Shown piece after piece: positions 49,648 through 58,188 of a DNA stretch of 64,000 nucleotides (the stretch's first letter is position 1; each line of letters opens with the position of its first letter). This DNA comes from Pirellulales bacterium (GTDB lineage: Bacteria > Planctomycetota > Planctomycetia > Pirellulales > PALSA-1355): assembly GCA_022844125.1 (NCBI GenBank), contig JALHMI010000021.1, positions 1-64,000 on the forward strand. The letters are read 5' to 3'. The notes below the pieces were generated by a model, which saw only the letters and a program-made list of their open reading frames with translations, did no database searches and had not been told where the DNA came from. Both the position numbers and the translations under genes were made by a program.

Positions 49648-50730
49648 TTAACCGCTCGTGGTGTCCGCGAGTGCTCCGGCGTCCTGCTCACGCTGAGTAT
49701 CCGAGGCGTGGAATTCCGACCATAAATAAGCCAAAGTCGATTCGGCGCCTTGGTTCCGATTGAGGCCCGAGGCGTGCAAACCGTCGCAACAGGCACCACG
49801 CGTATCGTCGGCCAGCGGTTCTCGTAAACTGTTCTCGCCATGAAACCAGGCATTCGCTCGACGCAAAGTAGTCAAGAACTCATCGGCCCGACATACGTCG
49901 TAGGCTTCGCGCGCTGCTTCGGCCATGGTCGCCGCTTCGACCGGCTGCTGATCGTGCATGGCCTTGCTTTGCCGGGGCGCGTGCCACCCCTCGTTGCCAA
50001 TGGGCCAGAAGACACCCTCCGACGTAGTCTCGCGATCCAGAAATCGAAACGTGGTTTCCGCGACCGAGCGGTAGCGCTCGGCTGGCCAATGGCGGGCGGC
50101 GACAAACAATGCATGTGGTAGCACGGCGTTCGCATAGGTCATGCGGGGTTCGAACCACTGCCAGTCCGGCGACCGGCAGCGATCAAAACACTCCACGAGT
50201 TGTCGCGCTGCGCACCAGGCGACGTTCTCGAGTGTGGCCGAGTCCGATAAGTTTGCGCGTTTGAGGTGATCCCACGCCAACACAACGTAGGCCTGGGCGC
50301 GCGGGCTGCGCATGTCAATCAGGGTTGGTACGAGTGCGACCAGAAGCTCTCTGGCAAGGAGACGAAAGTCGTTCGGTAGATCACTGGCCAGGACTTCGGC
50401 CAAGGCACGCACCGTCTGCCCCTGGCAGTCGTCGCAACCTTTGACGTCGAGCCAGCCGCGTTGATAGTTGAGGAAATTGTGGAAGGCACCGCCAGCACAC
50501 TGCGCAAATTGCAGGAAGCCCAGGTAGCGAGCAACACGCTCGAGCATTTGTGGACCGGGGTGATTCGCATGCAACCGAGCGCAAAGACGCAGGGCTCGCG
50601 CATTGTCATCCGTCGTGTACCCGCTATCTCGTCGCGGAAGACTGTAGATCGCGTGCTGGATCAGTCCGCAGGAATCGGTCAGGCGGTCGAGATGATCCAT
50701 CACGATCGGGTTTCTGATTGGAATAGGCAC
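49648..50730 (-). CDS. Glycosyltransferase-associated alpha/alpha-barrel protein
   Basis: The GTG at 50730 ([19 protein letters not shown]) overlaps the GT stop by one base as TAGTG, signalling coupled translation; the frame upstream to 50877 is antisense-like. The 361-residue protein opens MDHLDRLTDSCGLIQHAIYSLPRRDSGYTTDDNARAL, followed by helical repeats (RAQAYVVLAWDHLKRAN, TLENVAWCAARQLVECF, QWFEPRMTYANAVLPHALFVA). This is the family usually fused to or adjacent to GT4 enzymes and GH130. The TTDDNARAL segment is the most diagnostic. Catalytic role is unknown; an (alpha/alpha)6 glycosidase-like fold is plausible. Confidence 0.78.
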   Translation of the reverse strand: MPIPIRNPIVMDHLDRLTDSCGLIQHAIYSLPRRDSGYTTDDNARALRLCARLHANHPGPQMLERVARYLGFLQFAQCAGGAFHNFLNYQRGWLDVKGCDDCQGQTVRALAEVLASDLPNDFRLLARELLVALVPTLIDMRSPRAQAYVVLAWDHLKRANLSDSATLENVAWCAARQLVECFDRCRSPDWQWFEPRMTYANAVLPHALFVAARHWPAERYRSVAETTFRFLDRETTSEGVFWPIGNEGWHAPRQSKAMHDQQPVEAATMAEAAREAYDVCRADEFLTTLRRANAWFHGENSLREPLADDTRGACCDGLHASGLNRNQGAESTLAYLWSEFHASDTQREQDAGALADTTSG

Positions 50731-51965
50731 TACAAACTTCCCTTCAGGTAATGCGCACGCGCCCCGGCGGAAGCGGGCGTGGGCACGATCGCTCGGTGCA
50801 AGTGGGCGATGCCCACCTCCCCGGGCAAGACAAGGCGATTGAACAACTTCAAGTACTTGAGGCCAACGTTCTTCCAATGCATTGGCCGTGAGTACTCATA
50901 GGCCCTGCGGCGCGTTTCGAGTTGAAATGCGGCATCGTTCAGAAATCGCAGGGCCGCGTCGGCAAAGCCATCGCTTTGACCAAACGGCGTGAGCAGCCCA
51001 CGTCCTTCGGCGAGTACCTCTTGAGCATACAAGTAGGGCGTACTCACAACCGCGAGACCGGCCGACAGGGCATACGCCAAGGTGCCGCTGGCAATCTGGT
51101 CCTTTCCCGGATAGGGCGTGACATAGACGTCACAGGCCTGCAGATGAGCCAACAAATCCGGGAGTGCAAGGAACTGGTTGACGAACCGCACATGCGCACC
51201 GACCCCCAGTTCTTGGGCCATTGTTTCCAGACTCTCGCGATAGACTTCTCCCTCCTGGCGTTTGACGATCGGGTGCGTTGCGCCGACGATCAGATAGACG
51301 GCATTGGGGCATTCCGCCACGATCCGCGGCATGGCTTGGATCATGTACTCCAGACCTTTGCCTCGATTGATTAGCCCGAAAGTGCAGATCACACGTTTAC
51401 CACCCAGTCCCAGTCGGGTCTTCGCGGTGTCATCGCGATGAAAGGGAACCTCGGGGACGCCGTGGGGAATGACCGATACGCGCCGGTCGGGCACGCCATA
51501 GACGCTGGTCAACAGCTTCGCAGCGATGCGAGTCATTACTACGAGCCCCTGGCTGTTGGCAGCGATCTGCTGAATGAGACGTCGGGGCAGCGGAGCCGGC
51601 TCCGTCATCAAGGTGTGGAACGTGGTCACGATCGGCTTTTGACAAGTCTCTACGAAATCCAGGATGTCCGCGCCCCACTCCCCCGGGTAGAGCCCAAACT
51701 CGTGTTGCAGGCTGACCACGTCGCACGGTCCGTCGTTGGCCACTTCGGCGGCCACGCGATACGCGCCAGAGTCGGCATTGTCGATGACGTGCACGACACG
51801 CGGATCGGAATAGTCGTGTGCGCATGTTTTCTGGATCGCCGCAATGGAGGACAGATCCGAATCGGCCGCCGAATCAACAGCGTCCGCCGAATCGCGAGTG
51901 AACGTCGCGAGCCCACACTCTTCGGGAGGATAGGTCGACACGAACAGCGGACGAATGATGTTCAT
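50730..51965 (-). CDS. GT4-family glycosyltransferase
   Basis: The 411-residue GT-B protein has an N-terminal Rossmann domain ([43 protein letters not shown]) and a C-terminal sugar-nucleotide domain ([48 protein letters not shown]). The E-x7-E donor motif is relaxed ([16 protein letters not shown]). It is the first gene of the minus-strand operon with the helical protein and GH130, so together they probably make and recycle a mannose-containing oligosaccharide. It is preceded by a hairpin with a T-run 31 bases upstream of its ATG, a possible attenuator. Confidence 0.88.
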
Positions 51966-51996
51966 TCAGTTGGTATCCTGGGCACGCAGACGAAAC

Positions 51997-52060
51997 AAAA
52001 AAAGCCGACGTGGCGGAACACCCTGAGGTGCACTGCCACGTCGGCTTACTCATTAACAAG
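51997..52060 (-). promoter_or_regulatory. Terminator-like leader element A
   Basis: On the minus strand, AAGCCGACGTGGC / GCCACGTCGGCTT is a perfect 13-bp stem enclosing an inner hairpin (CACC-CTGA-GGTG on the plus strand), then seven T residues. The element lies 31 bases before the GT4 start codon and is homologous to element B at 52703-52762. Homology includes upstream TGTTAAT/TGTTAT and the TTTTTTTGTT tail. A third small stem, GCCTGGC/GCCAGGC, follows at 52063-52080. Confidence 0.7.
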
Positions 52061-52223
52061 CCGCCTGGCCAAAGCCAGGCTGCTCTTCAGTTAGTCTACC
52101 GAGTGAGTCGCTGTTGCGCGAGGTGCGCTCTGACGCTCACGATCTCATTGAGCGATTGTATTGTACCGCATGCAATCGGTGATCAGCCCACAATCTCGCA
52201 ATTCGGGCAAACTAGCTGGAGGA

Positions 52224-52418
52224 CTACTGATATTTCTCTCGAATTGACTGTTCCATCGCCCTGCTGCAGGTATTGCAGAGTGGACCGATTGTCTCTGCCA
52301 TGACGCACAAGGTTTCCTTCGCTGTGCCGTGTCGCCGCAACAGCCGTTTCATACGAGGCAGCCACTGTGACGCTTCGCCGCCAATCATCAGCGAACGGCA
52401 ACTCTTGCAGATTTGCAT
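52224..52418 (-). CDS. Small zinc-finger-like protein
   Basis: The 64-residue protein has two C-x-x-C knuckles: MQICKSCRSLM at the N-terminus and LCNTCSRAM near the C-terminus, joined by a basic helix (WLPRMKRLLRRHGTAKE). Four cysteines spaced to bind one zinc suggest a small nucleic-acid or protein adaptor. It starts 19 bp after the stop of another zinc-ribbon protein on the same strand, so they are a likely operon. No family is recognised. Confidence 0.6.
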   Translation of the reverse strand: MQICKSCRSLMIGGEASQWLPRMKRLLRRHGTAKETLCVMAETIGPLCNTCSRAMEQSIREKYQ

Positions 52419-52436
52419 GGTGTTTGCTCGGAGTGG

Positions 52437-52667
52437 CTATCTGACGCGAACGCGAATCCGGCCGTGGGAATTGAACTGGGTACCGCACCTAGGGCACGCC
52501 CAACCACCGGATGGCAATCCACTCGAATTCGTCAGCAGGGGAACTACCGGAAGATGTCCGCCACATTCGGCACAAGTAATCTCGTCGAGTCGAATGGCGA
52601 TCGTTGCGATCACCAATAGCCCGACACAAATAGCCAGCGTGAGAGTCCCAACCAAAAGCATGCTCAT
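52437..52667 (-). CDS. Small membrane-anchored zinc-ribbon protein
   Basis: Start at MSMLLVGTLTLAICVGLLVIATIAIRL (52667); the frame upstream would read through leader element B and is discarded. The protein is one membrane helix followed by a zinc ribbon: EITCAECGGHL...GWACPRCGTQF. It is 76 residues long. It precedes the other zinc-finger protein in a likely two-gene operon. Leader element B lies 35 bases upstream of its ATG. Function is unknown. Confidence 0.6.
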   Translation of the reverse strand: MSMLLVGTLTLAICVGLLVIATIAIRLDEITCAECGGHLPVVPLLTNSSGLPSGGWACPRCGTQFNSHGRIRVRVR

Positions 52668-52702
52668 CGGAAGCCCCCCGGATTGCCTTAGCTCAAATGA
52701 AC

Positions 52703-52762
52703 AAAAAAACCGACCTGGCGGAGCCCTCCGAGGGCCGTCCACCACGTCGGCATACTTGATAA
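52703..52762 (-). promoter_or_regulatory. Terminator-like leader element B
   Basis: On the minus strand, GCCGACGTGG...CCAGGTCGG pairs with one mismatch, encloses an inner GCCCT/AGGGC hairpin, then seven T residues. It aligns along ~70 bp with element A at 51997-52060, including conserved CCGCCA, TTTTTTTGTT and TGTTA segments, but its stem bases differ. It lies 35 bases before the ATG at 52667. No minus-strand gene ends just upstream, so it is not simply the terminator of a preceding gene. Confidence 0.65.
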
Positions 52763-53032
52763 CAGGCGATTCGATCTTGCGATTCGCCCTTTAACTAGTC
52801 ATCCGAAGCCATCCCCGCCTTGTCCACAAGCCGGGGTCTCCACTCCACATCAACTGTATGCTGCGCGCACGGAAAAGCAATCACCACGATGCGGCCGAAG
52901 CAACATCGACGCTCCGATGGTTTCGCTCGCCGGACGCGTCTCGTGGCGACTATGGCTCAAACGCATTCGCGGTTAGAATCGAGTAACGACGTGGCTGCCG
53001 GGCGAATATGCCGTTTAAGAGGGGACGACTCC

Positions 53033-53413
53033 ATGAAAACTCAAGGCGAAATTGAAGCAGCCATTTGCGACGGCCTCAATCGCTTTGAGCAAGAGTACAT
53101 GGGTCGCGGCCCAAAGCAGATTCACGCTCATTTGTTTGGAGATTGCCTGTTGATACGACTCCACGGGGTGCTGACGGCCGCCGAAAAGCACTTGGTCAAG
53201 ACACTTCCCGCCGAAAAGGGAAGAGACCTGTTGAAACAAGTGCGCACCCATCTGATCGAGACGGCCCGACCGGTGATGGAGGCGATGGTCACTGAGATTA
53301 CCGGCGTTAAGGTTGTCAGCCTGCACCACGACATCAGTACAAGCACGGCCGAGGAGGTTGTGATCTTCACGCTCGCCGAGGCACCGATCTTCCGTGAATC
53401 TCGGAAGAAGTAG
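53033..53413 (+). CDS. DUF2294-family protein (Na-translocating decarboxylase-like domain)
   Basis: Start at MKTQGEIEAAICDGLNRFEQEYMGRGPKQIHAHLFGDCLLIRLHG, with GAGGGG upstream; the frame continues upstream to 52820 but is non-protein-like. The 126-residue protein matches the DUF2294 family: an N-terminal helix, GRGPKxIxxHLxxDxLxIRLxGVLTxAEKxL, and KVVSLHHDISTSTAEEVVIFTL. Family members are small, often duplicated, with unknown function. It is the gene immediately before ssrA. Confidence 0.85.
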   Translation: MKTQGEIEAAICDGLNRFEQEYMGRGPKQIHAHLFGDCLLIRLHGVLTAAEKHLVKTLPAEKGRDLLKQVRTHLIETARPVMEAMVTEITGVKVVSLHHDISTSTAEEVVIFTLAEAPIFRESRKK

Positions 53414-53578: not shown

Positions 53579-53939
53579 GGGGGCGAACTGGGTTCGACCG
53601 GATAGCTAGAAGCGTGGGTGGCGTGCCGTGGTTGATCAGTGGGCCACGTAAAAAAGCTGATCACATCTTCAATTGCTGAAGATTCTTTTGCTTTGGCTGC
53701 CTAGAGATAGGTAACCCGAGTTGCGGGCTTTAGTCGGAGAGGCCCAAAAACTCGTCACCAAATCCGAATCGCTGCGGGTCACTGCTGGGCACGCCCGCGG
53801 CTAGAAAAGTTCCCGGCTGGACGGCCAGGCACCTCGTCGGTTAGGGGTCGGCGGTCGAGACGCGTAAATGATCCGACTACGCACGTAGAAGCCCCCGCGG
53901 AAATGTCGCGGGACGCGGGTTCGATTCCCGCCGCCTCCA
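53579..53939 (+). ncRNA. ssrA: tmRNA (transfer-messenger RNA)
   Basis: The 5' end GGGGGCGAACTGGGTTCGAC and 3' end CGGGTTCGATTCCCGCCGCC form the tRNA-like domain. The 7-bp acceptor stem GGGGGCG/CGCCTCC has one G-U pair, the T-arm loop is TTCGATT, and the discriminator base is A. CCA is not encoded. A tag frame GCT GAA GAT TCT TTT GCT TTG GCT GCC TAG gives AEDSFALAA, ending in the degradation signal ALAA. It is one-piece, ~361 nt. It frees stalled ribosomes by trans-translation. A genomic island begins at its 3' end. Confidence 0.95.
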
Positions 53940-55233
53940 CATTGACACGTCCTGACAATTGACGACGATCATTGCCAAAACCCTTGCCCTTGCAAGGGTT
54001 TTGGCGTTTCGAGTCCGCCGGATCGACGACAGGCTGTGACACCGAATGCCCCTCAGCGCTGCAAAAACTGCAGCGCATATGCAGCGCGGGTTTCTCTTCG
54101 CGCACTGGCCCGGTTGCGGCTTCAGCCCGCCTCGGTGACGGGAGATTTGCCAGCGCCTTGGCCTGATCACCCAGACCGATGTGTGTGTACTTCATCGTCA
54201 TCTTCACGTCTGAGTGGCGGGCTAGCTCCTTTGCCTGCGGCAGCGTCGCACCATTACGCAGTAACTCAGTGATATGGGTATGCCGCCCCGCGGCATGGAA
54301 ATCTGCGATTCCATCTTCGTTTTCGTAGGCGATACCGACCCGCTCCAGGTCCTTGCGCACCATGCACCAGGTCTTCTTTCGATCAAGGTTTGGGAAGAGC
54401 TTCTCGGCCGGCGTCAGCCCCACAAGCCATTCCGGCAACATTCCGACGAGATCGGCATGCAGGGGAAGCACGTCCTTGCGGCGATGCTTTGAGCAGGCCG
54501 CTTCGACAGTCACAGTCGGCTGCTCAGTATCGAGGGCGAAGCTTCGCCGTGAGAGGCTTGCCAGTTCCTTGCGGCGAAGCCCTGTCATGTAGGACATGAG
54601 GTAAACGCGAGCCCGTTCTTCTCCGCTATAGCCTTGAATTCGCTTCTGACTTGAACGGGCCGATTCCACGAGCCTGGCGACTTCGTCCGTGGTCAATGCA
54701 CGTCGGACATGCCGCACATCGACTTCCGTGTTGAGCCGTTCCAAGCCCAGAATAGGATTGGCAATCAATCGCTTGGTCGTAACGCACCAATTGCAGAATG
54801 CGTCCATCGCCTGCAAGTAGTGATTGTAGGTGCGGTGCCCCAAGTCCTCTTCCTTCCGTAATCGACGCAAGAAACCCTGCACCGGCTCACTCTCGATATC
54901 GCCCAACGTCTTGAAGTCGCATCCGTCGACAATGCACCGAGTCCTCGACATTGTGAGCCGTACATGTTTCCCAGTGTTATCCCCGAGGCTTTCTTCGAAG
55001 GCCTCTAGATGCTCCTTGATCGGCAATAGCCGCTGTTGGGCAAACCGATCCTGCTGCGGGTCGATTAGACCGCTTGAGCGAAGTCTCGCCTCGGTTTCCA
55101 GCTTCGCCGCCAGTTCCTCCGTTAAACCCTTGTCGGTAAATCCGATCTTGGTCCGGCGCTTGCCAGTGTGGTCGAAGTACTGAATGACGTAGGGCGAGTT
55201 GCGCCCCTTGCCACGTTTGAAGATTGATGCCAT
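53779..55233 (-). CDS. Tyrosine-recombinase integrase
   Basis: The N-terminus SIFKRGKGRNSPYVIQYFDHTGKRRTKIGF resembles Arm-DNA-binding domains. A core-binding helical domain spans ~70-160. The catalytic domain has Arg220 (YMTGLRRKEL), Arg317/His318 (DFHAAGRHTHITELL), His340 (LARHSDV) and Tyr349 (KMTMKYTHIG), all in order. The usual HxLR spacing is altered: the His lies four residues, not three, before Arg317. The recombinase fold ends near residue 365. The last ~120 residues (EAAGIEPASRDISAGASTC) are translation of DNA up to and antisense through the tmRNA 3' end, so they are probably not part of the ancestral protein. It drives integration at ssrA. Confidence 0.9.
   Translation of the reverse strand: MASIFKRGKGRNSPYVIQYFDHTGKRRTKIGFTDKGLTEELAAKLETEARLRSSGLIDPQQDRFAQQRLLPIKEHLEAFEESLGDNTGKHVRLTMSRTRCIVDGCDFKTLGDIESEPVQGFLRRLRKEEDLGHRTYNHYLQAMDAFCNWCVTTKRLIANPILGLERLNTEVDVRHVRRALTTDEVARLVESARSSQKRIQGYSGEERARVYLMSYMTGLRRKELASLSRRSFALDTEQPTVTVEAACSKHRRKDVLPLHADLVGMLPEWLVGLTPAEKLFPNLDRKKTWCMVRKDLERVGIAYENEDGIADFHAAGRHTHITELLRNGATLPQAKELARHSDVKMTMKYTHIGLGDQAKALANLPSPRRAEAATGPVREEKPALHMRCSFCSAEGHSVSQPVVDPADSKRQNPCKGKGFGNDRRQLSGRVNVEAAGIEPASRDISAGASTCVVGSFTRLDRRPLTDEVPGRPAGNFSSRGRAQQ
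53915..53940. other. Probable integration (att) site at the tmRNA 3' end
   Basis: The tmRNA 3' segment CGGGTTCGATTCCCGCCGCC is where elements of this kind integrate, preserving the RNA gene. The integrase gene lies directly beside it and is transcribed toward it. The matching direct repeat at the far end of the island was not seen in this window, so the core is not delimited. Confidence 0.65.
53975..54004. terminator. Palindrome with T/A-rich flank after ssrA
   Basis: A 12-bp perfect stem CCAAAACCCTTG/CAAGGGTTTTGG with a CCCTTG loop lies 35 bp beyond the tmRNA. It could end ssrA transcripts and, in reverse, integrase transcripts. It sits inside the extended integrase frame, which supports the idea that the frame's end is not native. 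Confidence 0.6.
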
Positions 55234-55236
55234 TGG

Positions 55237-55482
55237 TTATTTCCTCCGGGAATCATTTTCGCGCGATTGTGGCGGCCGACAACCCCCTGCGATCCATTCG
55301 ATCACCGAATCGCGACGCCAGCGCACGGCCCCACCGATTCGTAGCGGCTCAGGGATCTGCCCACCGGAACGAAGCCGCCATAGGGTTCTCACACTGAGCT
55401 GCATCAGTTCGGCGAACTCCTCCGCCGTAATAAGCAGGGGCTCGCCGGGAACCGCCGGATTGGCGGGCATGAGCGAAGACAT
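55237..55482 (-). CDS. Excisionase-like MerR/HTH_17 protein
   Basis: Start at MSSLMPANPAVPGEP (55482), with AAGGAG six bases upstream. The 81-residue protein is a winged-helix DNA binder: LLITAEEFAELMQLSVRTLWRLRSGGQIPEPLRIGGAVRWRRDSVIEWI. This matches HTH_17/excisionase domains next to integrases. It ends 3 bp before the integrase start on the same strand, so the pair are co-transcribed. It probably directs excision of the element or regulates the integrase. Confidence 0.85.
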   Translation of the reverse strand: MSSLMPANPAVPGEPLLITAEEFAELMQLSVRTLWRLRSGGQIPEPLRIGGAVRWRRDSVIEWIAGGCRPPQSRENDSRRK

Positions 55483-55529
55483 GAATAGCTCCTTTACAGC
55501 GAGGCAAGCCTCAGGAAAAACGGGCAGTA

Positions 55530-55676
55530 TCAACGGCGGATCTCGAGCCAAGTGCACAACAACCTCCAAGTGGCGATGGATTGCGTCGCGATCACGCCTG
55601 GATTCCGCCCGTGGAACTCACCAACTCGGAAACAGGCCCAGCAGGCGACAAAAAACATCACACTGGACAGTGACAT
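55530..55676 (-). CDS. Tiny membrane protein candidate
   Basis: MSLSSVMFFVACWACFRVGE followed by a 28-residue polar tail forms a 48-residue protein with one N-terminal helix. The ribosome site is weak (AGAGAG). It fills the gap between the excisionase-like gene and the next gene in the same operon direction. It could also be a chance frame. Confidence 0.35.
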   Translation of the reverse strand: MSLSSVMFFVACWACFRVGEFHGRNPGVIATQSIATWRLLCTWLEIRR

Positions 55677-55716
55677 GACGATCTCTCTTCGAAGTAAGGT
55701 CACGTTCCGACGTTGT

Positions 55717-56022
55717 CTACTCTCGCTCCATCTCCCGCTCTTTGGCGGGCTGCATCTCTTCGGAGCGCTCCTTCGCGGCCTGCACGCGATCCGCGACGGA
55801 GGGAAACTGGTTGTCCTTCTCCTCATCCATGTCCTTGGGGACTCCTTCGTCGCTCCGGCGATCCGCGGCAACTTCCCCTGGCGTCCGCGTCCCGTACAAG
55901 CCGTATTCGGAGTGTTGCGCCACATTGGACTCGGGATAGAACGCCCCGCGAATCTCACGCAGGCCCAGCCGTCCCATCGCTTCCAGGTGCCCCTCGCCGA
56001 TCTTCGGTTTCTCACCAGCCAT
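55717..56022 (-). CDS. Hypothetical polar protein of the mobile element
   Basis: The 101-residue protein begins MAGEKPKIGEGHLEAMGRLGLREIRGAFYPESNVAQHSEYGLYGTRTPGEV and ends in a charged helix (ADRVQAAKERSEEMQPAKEREMERE). It is free of hydrophobic segments. No family is recognised. GAAAGGG lies upstream of the ATG. Its position just ahead of the membrane protein and the coupling ATPase suggests a conjugation-related accessory. Confidence 0.6.
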   Translation of the reverse strand: MAGEKPKIGEGHLEAMGRLGLREIRGAFYPESNVAQHSEYGLYGTRTPGEVAADRRSDEGVPKDMDEEKDNQFPSVADRVQAAKERSEEMQPAKEREMERE

Positions 56023-56055
56023 TGCAATGCCCTTTCAACAACGAGTTTGTTGTCA

Positions 56056-56637
56056 CTACCACCGACCTTGCATCTCGCGCATCCGGTCCATGCGTTGACG
56101 CTGCTCGTTCAACGCATCCCGCGTGTCCCAGTCCATCGCGTCATTGATACTCGCCTCCAGCCGCGTCTTGATCAGCAGGCACAACGCCGCGAATAGCAGA
56201 TAGCAGCCGAGCGCATCGTTCAGGTTCAGAAAGAACAGGCCAAACAGAAATACAACCAGCGGTTCATGGAACGACTTGATCTTCAGTTCGCGATCCGGTG
56301 ACTTGATCCGAAAGAGCCTCGGCTCGCCGGTGTAGCGCGAGTGGGTATCCATAGTGCGCTTGCCGCGCAACAAAATTCCCAGCCGGGCGACGATCAACAT
56401 GAAGAGGTAAATCCACCAGTACAGGATCAGCGGCCTGATGTTCTGGCCCTCAAAGAACAGGCCGAAGACCGGGATCAGGACTAATCCGGCGGCCGACTGG
56501 TAGTTCAGGTAGCGAACCCCGAATCTTCGGTGCAGAAGCACCTCGACCGTCACGGCGCCCGTCTGTGCGATAAAGGCAATCCAGGAAAGCCCGGTCCGCG
56601 CCTTATCCGCGATGCTCATTGGCTCGTTGTTGAACAT
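56056..56637 (-). CDS. Multi-spanning membrane protein of the mobile element
   Basis: The 193-residue protein has about four to five helices (GLSWIAFIAQTGAVTVEVLLHRR, SAAGLVLIPVFGLFF, LILYWWIYLFMLIVARLGILL, PLVVFLFGLFFLNLNDALGCYLLFAALCLLI), a central polar loop (TMDTHSRYTGEPRLFRIKSPDRELKIK), and a charged C-terminal helix. It lies 39 bp downstream of the coupling ATPase in the same operon. It may be its membrane anchor partner, since the ATPase itself lacks obvious N-terminal transmembrane helices. That is inference. Confidence 0.7.
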   Translation of the reverse strand: MFNNEPMSIADKARTGLSWIAFIAQTGAVTVEVLLHRRFGVRYLNYQSAAGLVLIPVFGLFFEGQNIRPLILYWWIYLFMLIVARLGILLRGKRTMDTHSRYTGEPRLFRIKSPDRELKIKSFHEPLVVFLFGLFFLNLNDALGCYLLFAALCLLIKTRLEASINDAMDWDTRDALNEQRQRMDRMREMQGRW

Positions 56638-56676
56638 GCTGCACCTCCGTTGAGAAGTTCGGGACGCTGACGGGAA

Positions 56677-58188
56677 CTAAAACCGATTCTGCTGGAACGT
56701 AGCCAGGCGCCAGTTGCGGCCGGTATCCTTAAACACCCGGCCGCTACGGAAGGCGATCGCCTCGATCACCCGGCCGTTGCGATTGCCGCCGGTACGCAGC
56801 GTCGAGAAGACCGTGGGTGGGACCTCGTGGTAGTAGGTCTCCGAGAAACCACCGCTTGCTTGCGAGCTGCCCATTCCGAGCACCAGCGAGGTCCAGTCGT
56901 CCGGCGCGTGACCACTGCTGGTGTTCATCAGCAACTGTTTCGTCTGGCCGATCAGCTGGGAGGCGTAGTTATTCGTCGTCGGGTCCGAATTCGCGTGGAA
57001 TACCTTGAGGTTAAGATTCCCGAACAGCGAGTCACACTCCGCCTGTCCCTTCTGATTACCCCCCAGCGCCGCCACAATGTTGGGCACGTTTTGCGAGAGA
57101 TAGACGCAAGCCACGCGCGCCGATCGGCAAGTATTTTGGAAAATACGGTCTGCGGACTGGACAAACTCCTGAAACTCGTCGGCGAAGAAGAATACCGGGC
57201 GCGGGCTCTGCCGAATGTTGCGGCGCTGGATACCGAGCTGAAAGCTATGTCGCAGGATGCCCTGGATCAGACGCCCCAGCGGGCCATACTCGACGACCGG
57301 CAGCCCGGCGAAGACGACATACCCATGTTCCATCGCCTCGGGAGTCACGTTCGTCTCAGTGCAGAGCAGCTCACGGCCGATCCCGCGGTTAAGCATGTCG
57401 ACCATCGAAGTGACCGTCGAGACGACAATGCTGCGGGTCTTGTCGCTCAGCCGCGCGAAATCCTCGAAAAAATACGTCACCGCCAAATGGAAGTCGCGCT
57501 TCTGCAATTGAGTCTTGACCTGCTGCTCCGCCTCCAGGATGCAACGGTAACAAAAGGATCGCTTCTGCCAGGAGGGATTGGCGATCTCGTCGACGGATGT
57601 CGGCGCGGTGACAATGAACTCATACAAGTCAGGAATGCTGACGCGACCGCGGGCGAGAATGAGCACATCGACCGTGTTTCGGCAGATTTGCCGTTTGGTC
57701 AACTCCCAGTACTGCCCCTCTTCGCGCCCTGCACCGCCGTTGCCGCTGATTTGCTCGGCGATCTCCAACGCCGTCGAAAGCAGGCTAACAATGTTTTCAG
57801 TAATCCCGGCCCCCCGGCCGCCTCTTTCCAGCTCGTAGTTCAGGAAGTTGAATCTCCACGGCTGATCGGGGCCGAACTCGATCAGATCATGCCGCCGGCG
57901 TGTCTTGCGGGCATAGGTCTGCCATCGCTCCAGTTCGTCTCCCTTGAAGACACTGACATAACCGCCGTACCCGGCGCGGAGCATGGCCATTGCCGCCGTC
58001 TCGGCGAGCCCCGTTGTCTTGCCCGAGCCGGTGGCGCCCAGTCCCAGGCAGCCTTCGAACGATTCACCGATGGTAAATGCATCTGATCGCGACCAGCGAA
58101 AGAGCGGCTGATCCTGCGACCAGACATCTCGTGTCCATCGCTTCCGCCAACCCGGCGCCTTGTTGCCGAACAGTGACCATCGCATCAA
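56677..58188 (-). CDS. VirD4/TraD-like conjugative coupling ATPase
   Basis: The 503-residue P-loop protein has Walker A LGATGSGKTTGLAE (49-62), an NTPase core with KRQICRNTVDVLILARG, Walker B RPVFFFADEFQEFV, and motif CVYLSQNVPNIVAALGG. The latter resembles the TraM-recognition (TraD_C) segment SLQxxxxLxxxxG of type IV coupling proteins. N-terminal transmembrane helices are missing; a separate membrane protein gene lies downstream. Such ATPases pump DNA or protein into a secretion channel. No relaxase or T4SS channel gene lies in the visible part of the element. Confidence 0.85.
   Translation of the reverse strand: MMRWSLFGNKAPGWRKRWTRDVWSQDQPLFRWSRSDAFTIGESFEGCLGLGATGSGKTTGLAETAAMAMLRAGYGGYVSVFKGDELERWQTYARKTRRRHDLIEFGPDQPWRFNFLNYELERGGRGAGITENIVSLLSTALEIAEQISGNGGAGREEGQYWELTKRQICRNTVDVLILARGRVSIPDLYEFIVTAPTSVDEIANPSWQKRSFCYRCILEAEQQVKTQLQKRDFHLAVTYFFEDFARLSDKTRSIVVSTVTSMVDMLNRGIGRELLCTETNVTPEAMEHGYVVFAGLPVVEYGPLGRLIQGILRHSFQLGIQRRNIRQSPRPVFFFADEFQEFVQSADRIFQNTCRSARVACVYLSQNVPNIVAALGGNQKGQAECDSLFGNLNLKVFHANSDPTTNNYASQLIGQTKQLLMNTSSGHAPDDWTSLVLGMGSSQASGGFSETYYHEVPPTVFSTLRTGGNRNGRVIEAIAFRSGRVFKDTGRNWRLATFQQNRF

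Follow-up and report, generated by a model that had tools for sequence, protein, structure and literature searches.

The window analysed here, a stretch of 64,000 nucleotides, contains along its minus strand a promoter, an RNA element (B), a 76-aa ORF, a 64-aa ORF, a second RNA element (A) and a glycosyltransferase operon that includes a GH130 gene (Table 1). Genes were called with a simple codon-score caller. Neither of the two small CxxC ORFs lying between B and A (52224–52667) gives a Pfam match above the cut-off, and no homologue of either was found in the compared element loci. Divergent from B lies a gene of the mpsC family, and synteny across loci identifies a divergent mpsC as a recurring neighbour upstream of the element. 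This is the nearest gene upstream of B, in agreement with the original observation that no gene ends just before B, and none on the minus strand does. Further along, a tmRNA gene (53579–53942, plus strand) is directly followed by a minus-strand ORF for a tyrosine integrase (53779–55233), and then comes a TraG/TraD-type coupling protein (56677–58188). The region 53579–58188 thus has the look of an integrative conjugative element that entered at the 3' end of the tmRNA gene. In a search of the window with Rfam 15 only the tmRNA scored above threshold; the best sub-threshold match of a relaxed search reached 16.3 bits against a threshold of 45.

Table 1. Positions of the RNA elements, promoters and neighbouring genes in the window
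Feature	Position	Strand	Basis
Element A, full leader RNA (113 model positions)	51994–52107	−	Search of own genome with covariance model R1, 107.3 bits, E 1.7e-23
A, 5' domain (predicted antiterminator hairpin)	52041–52102	−	Minimum-energy fold of partial transcript, −30.7 kcal/mol; compensatory changes in relatives
A, outer pairing of predicted antiterminator, enclosing ACU/AGU, URA/UUA and P1	TCGG 52102–52099 with CCGA 52044–52041	−	
A, terminator hairpin	52004–52047	−	Inverted repeat, fold, covariation
A, T7 tract of intrinsic terminator	51997–52003	−	Sequence; near invariant among relatives
A, −10-like TACAAT, −35 weak	52160–52165	−	Promoter scan
Element B, full leader RNA	52699–52811	−	R1, 84.8 bits, E 9.3e-18 in own genome
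B, terminator hairpin	52710–52751	−	Fold
B, T7 tract	52703–52709	−	Sequence
B, promoter TTGCTT (52880–52875), 16 nt, TACAGT (52858–52853)	52853–52880	−	Promoter scan; motif enriched family-wide
Glycosyltransferase (group 1/family 4), downstream of A	50730–51965	−	Pfam PF13692/PF00534; same gene after element in loci L174 and L177
64-aa CxxC ORF, second in B transcript	52224–52418	−	ORF call
76-aa ORF, membrane helix and CxxC zinc-ribbon-like, starting 35 nt after B	52437–52667	−	ORF call; zinc-ribbon Pfam matches sub-threshold only
mpsC-family gene, divergent from B	53033–53413	+	Pfam PF10057, E 2.6e-36; synteny

A and B are diverged copies of one RNA of about 113 nt that combines a 5' hairpin domain with an intrinsic terminator and its T7 tract. 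They had been described from the sequence as duplicated, terminator-like elements placed 31 and 35 nt before start codons. Both spacings are correct, A preceding the ATG of the ORF at 51965–50730 and B the ATG at 52667, as is the description of the ends, each of which consists of a stable hairpin and then seven T residues. The duplication is also real, but the alignment of about 70 bp claimed for it was too short; the likeness runs over the whole ~113 nt and includes a second, covarying hairpin. In both copies the terminator has the expected form of a GC-rich, covarying hairpin with a T tract directly after it. Compared with shuffled sequences the folds are stable, with z-scores of −6.1 for A and −3.6 for B. 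A TCGG box, at 52102 in A and 52806 in B, opens the conserved unit some 60 nt 5' of the hairpin.

In BLASTN searches with A or B, other genomes of the order proved to contain clear relatives, several to a genome and often clustered. Inside their own genome BLASTN recovers A only, and a covariance model (R1), built from an alignment (A2) of 40 BLASTN relatives of A and B, was needed to connect A with B. In this 6.4-Mb genome R1 finds only A, at 107 bits, and B, at 85 bits; below them come the reverse complement of A and then matches at noise level. Across the order 82 of 296 genomes were positive, with 1–11 copies each, and a phylum-wide draw gave the sparser figure of 14 positive genomes in 392, some of them from other classes. 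The covariance search across Planctomycetota that had been proposed as a check does return homologues, and the original idea is thus not refuted by a lack of them. A pattern scan of the genomes of 84,980 species yielded 96 stretches, all but two of which carry planctomycete titles, including Pirellulales, Planctomycetaceae, Phycisphaerales and an isolate that has several copies, Bythopirellula polymerisocia Pla144. One of the two exceptions, titled Acidimicrobiales (DAIDHF010000059.1, locus L279), was rejected as a non-planctomycete carrier, being 94–97% identical over ~7.5 kb to a Planctomycetales contig (L235), which is likely to reflect a binning error. The other, a Kiloniellaceae contig, is probably also mis-binned, to judge from the planctomycete-like stretch that adjoins its element. 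Viral spread was discounted, with 0 viral contigs carrying the element.

Strong evidence for a conserved structure comes from covariation. In A2 (n=40) double, compensatory changes are present in 8 of 8 P1 pairs and in 12 of 20 terminator pairs, and none of 500 shuffles reaches these scores. The covariation of P1 and the terminator was repeated on 106 sequences, mostly new, in alignments that were fitted to R1 and are hence biased towards the model. With compensatory changes present in 228 relatives (the unique copies pooled from two alignments of 126 and 106 members) the earlier suggestion that structure is under selection is well founded. The 5' domain folds as CGUCGG-AYG-ACU-...-URA-A-GAGC-...-GCUC-G-UUA-...-AGU-AAG-CCGACG. 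Its lower-stem helices, ACU/AGU and URA/UUA, covary though they are not in R1; in the former U-A is replaced by G-C in 19 copies and C-G by U-A in 3, and in the latter U-A is replaced by C-G and A-U by G-C in 16 and 23 copies respectively, representing few independent events because most of the compensatory changes fall in one clade or family. Conserved, symmetric internal loops (AYG opposite AAG and their neighbours) lie between these short helices. The conserved domain reaches ~60 nt before the terminator and has a sharp onset, and in the alignment of relatives the P1 loop is variable and the T tract near invariant. A leader peptide was considered and rejected, as the sole recurrent AUG (GGAUGAC) is GGACGAC or GGAAGAC in many copies and there is no conserved short ORF.

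The outermost helix of the 5' domain (P0) is built with the terminator's own 5' arm, and in the predicted folds P0 and the terminator are mutually exclusive. In partial transcripts that end before the 3' arm of the terminator, the CC of the 5' arm pairs with the 5' CGG box at a mean probability of 0.98–0.99, compared with 0.53 when the 5' ends are random and 0.67 when the first 12 nt of the element itself are permuted. At full length the predicted fold is the terminator in 110 of 117 cases. A and B share this predicted folding pattern. P0 measures 3–8 bp in nearly all tabulated copies (~3 bp in one clade) and is paired in 81% of cells, with little covariation of its own. The invariance of its core fits use in two folds, yet for that same reason yields little covariation evidence.

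A sigma-70-type promoter lies at most 75 nt upstream of 168 of 218 copies, against 21 in shuffles, with the −10 mostly at 40–70 nt, in a scan whose weights were picked after the enriched words had been seen. An unbiased count of words over the 95 nt upstream, which is independent of these weights, places TATAAT at the top (34 against 3.9 expected) followed by TACAAT, TATACT and TTGCTTT. Promoters are not enriched after the T tract, with 19 against 20.6, nor within the element, with 3 against 14.4. Of 124 next genes, 118 share the strand of the element and 6 run the opposite way; the median distance is 75 nt, and the gene often lies within 60 nt. Since these same-strand genes lie close by and no promoters are enriched after the terminator, the genes appear to be dependent on readthrough. 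Three pairs of elements occur in tandem, 7–16 nt apart, a spacing at which the second copy could hardly be reached except via the first terminator. This is the layout of an attenuator leader, with a promoter upstream, a terminator before the gene and no promoter enriched between the two.

Among the first downstream genes (n=109) MpsC is the most frequent (41), followed by response regulators (9), BON (7), PAS/histidine kinases (5), CsrA (4), CsbD (4), fatty-acid desaturase (3), glycosyltransferase (3) and DUF1328 (2). The three glycosyltransferases are the gene in the window and two orthologues of it. Near neighbours of the element add YflT, Transgly_assoc, dodecin, ferritin-like and Cpn60 families. 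In other bacteria, genes of many such families are general-stress genes. Of the 82 element genomes, 69 also have an MpsC match, against 24.7 expected (p 1.5e-35, uncorrected for species relatedness). MpsC was rejected as an obligatory trans-acting factor on the strength of 13 element genomes that have no MpsC match, among them two that are 95–99% complete (G260 and G272), and these make MpsC more likely to be a target than a regulator. CsrA-family matches form an unusually large set of paralogues, with 14 in the genome of A and B, where they are spread over contigs C3, C4, C6, C7, C9, C10, C12 and C15–C18, and 5–12 in eleven other element genomes of the order.

The most probable explanation, to which we assign a probability of about 0.8, is that A and B belong to a new family of 5' leader RNAs which act in cis to attenuate transcription in Planctomycetota and serve as a conditional terminator for a stress regulon. 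The family itself, its structure, promoter and position and the two exclusive predicted folds are shown by sequence and computation. From these we infer regulated termination and a stress-responsive switch; termination may alternatively be constitutive and partial. The RNA would begin at the sigma-70-type promoter shortly upstream, and its first ~65 nt would form one long imperfect antiterminator hairpin (CGUCGG/CCGACG, ACU/AGU, URA/UUA and a variable GC stem) whose helices are separated by the conserved internal loops and whose final strand doubles as the terminator's 5' arm. With synthesis of the 3' arm and the U-tract the stronger terminator hairpin would form, releasing the 5' CGG box, and transcription would end shortly before the gene. 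If the antiterminator were stabilised by a signal, be it a ligand, an ion or an RNA-binding protein, transcription would continue into the stress genes that follow. In the genome studied here this would place the glycosyltransferase operon and the two small CxxC ORFs under the same control.

Attenuators, riboregulators and small RNAs had all been offered as possibilities for A and B, and the present evidence favours the first, with the small RNA retained as a rival. According to this rival the elements are multicopy genes for trans-acting small RNAs, each complete with a promoter and a terminator, and are found ahead of stress genes by chance. An upstream promoter and a strong terminator are indeed the anatomy of a small-RNA gene, there are several copies per genome and conserved stretches are found on both sides of P1, but the explanation is made quite improbable by the strand and proximity of the following genes, by the lack of promoter enrichment after the terminator and by tandem copies that leave no room for a second promoter. 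Furthermore, in the fold of the partial transcript most conserved positions belong to base pairs or internal loops. Promoter position, gene strand and the tandem pairs together indicate a leader and not a free-standing small RNA. It is scarcely credible that the elements are plain constitutive terminators, or a dispersed repeat of the REP or MITE kind, with no regulatory role. While a hairpin and T7 tract make a textbook terminator, such an element would not explain a conserved 5' domain of ~60 nt with a sharp onset and covarying helices, nor the recurrence of the same gene families downstream, and B has no minus-strand gene to terminate. A dispersed repeat is also difficult to reconcile with only 2 copies in the genome of A and B and 1–11 matches in others.

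The conditional-terminator reading has two variants, which differ only in what moves the switch. In one, a riboswitch or ion sensor, the internal loops (AYG opposite AAG and neighbours) would form a pocket for a stress metabolite or ion. Symmetric conserved loops separating short helices would fit a ligand pocket, tandem copies are also in keeping with it, and the recurrent association with mpsC may be relevant in that Pfam annotates MpsC as part of a sodium-translocating system. Against this, no Rfam riboswitch matches and the regulon is functionally broad, unlike those of most metabolite riboswitches, so that we regard this variant as possible but tentative. In the other, CsrA bound to the GGA of the 5' box (UCGGAYGACU) would block the antiterminator and favour termination, and its release under stress would turn the genes on. 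CsrA is found in 12 of 12 element genomes with 5–14 paralogues each, csrA is itself within the regulon and sometimes directly after mpsC, and the GG of the box is near invariant with GGA in most copies. CsrA is thus a candidate, though a rather unlikely one, given that there is a single conserved GGA, the GG of which is paired in the predicted antiterminator and not in a hairpin loop, and that CGGA is replaced by CGGT in element A and by CGGT or CGGG in a few other copies. A broader proposal, which we judge to have less than an even chance, is that a riboswitch-like or RNA-sensor class confined to Planctomycetota directly senses a general stress signal (an ion, osmolyte, alarmone or temperature) and uses antitermination, at ordinary sigma-70-type promoters, to coordinate a stress regulon of several operons, so that these genes would need no stress sigma factor of their own.

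Attenuation as a general mechanism is already known, and several systems resemble the element in part. In the RAT leaders of BglG/LicT/SacY the hairpin is long and imperfect, has conserved internal loops and overlaps, by its 3' strand, the 5' arm of an intrinsic terminator. The element shares this arrangement but differs in sequence and in preceding stress genes where RAT leaders serve sugar uptake, and a BglG/LicT-type antiterminator was rejected as none of 12 element genomes has the CAT_RBD domain (PF03123). Leaders controlled by ANTAR proteins have two successive hairpins of which the second is a terminator. This too is seen in the element, but its P1 loop is variable and an ANTAR factor was rejected since PF03861 is absent from 10 of 12 element genomes, including that of A and B. 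A T-box leader was likewise discounted, with no Rfam match and a conserved consensus that lacks the T-box sequence. Among transcription-terminating riboswitches and orphan candidates, the thiS motif (HMP-PP riboswitch) is reported to have its aptamer embedded in the terminator (PMC6478431), and the DUF1646 motif is reported as a Na+ riboswitch (PMC9337991). Like these, the element is a 5' leader with a conserved structured domain that came to light through genome comparison ahead of any known function; it differs in having no Rfam match and an unusually broad stress regulon. The Rhodopirellula-1 motif, listed by Weinberg et al. (2010; PMC2864571), is also a candidate structured RNA of Planctomycetes, but one reported from Proteobacteria too. 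The open-access literature searched contained no description of the motif or of DUF2294/MpsC in such a setting. The family, its architecture and its regulon appear to be new with respect to that literature, barring identity with Rhodopirellula-1.

Little is known of stress-gene control in planctomycetes, and a phylum-specific leader RNA of defined structure offers a handle on the regulon. It also adds to the orphan RNA classes one that is located before MpsC, CsbD, BON, CsrA, kinase and response-regulator genes. A divergent subfamily (L180, L183 and L187–L208, mostly loci of family f8) has ACG/CGU and CGA/UCG helices and is mostly followed by an MpsC-like gene of ~150 aa; these copies might have a changed specificity.
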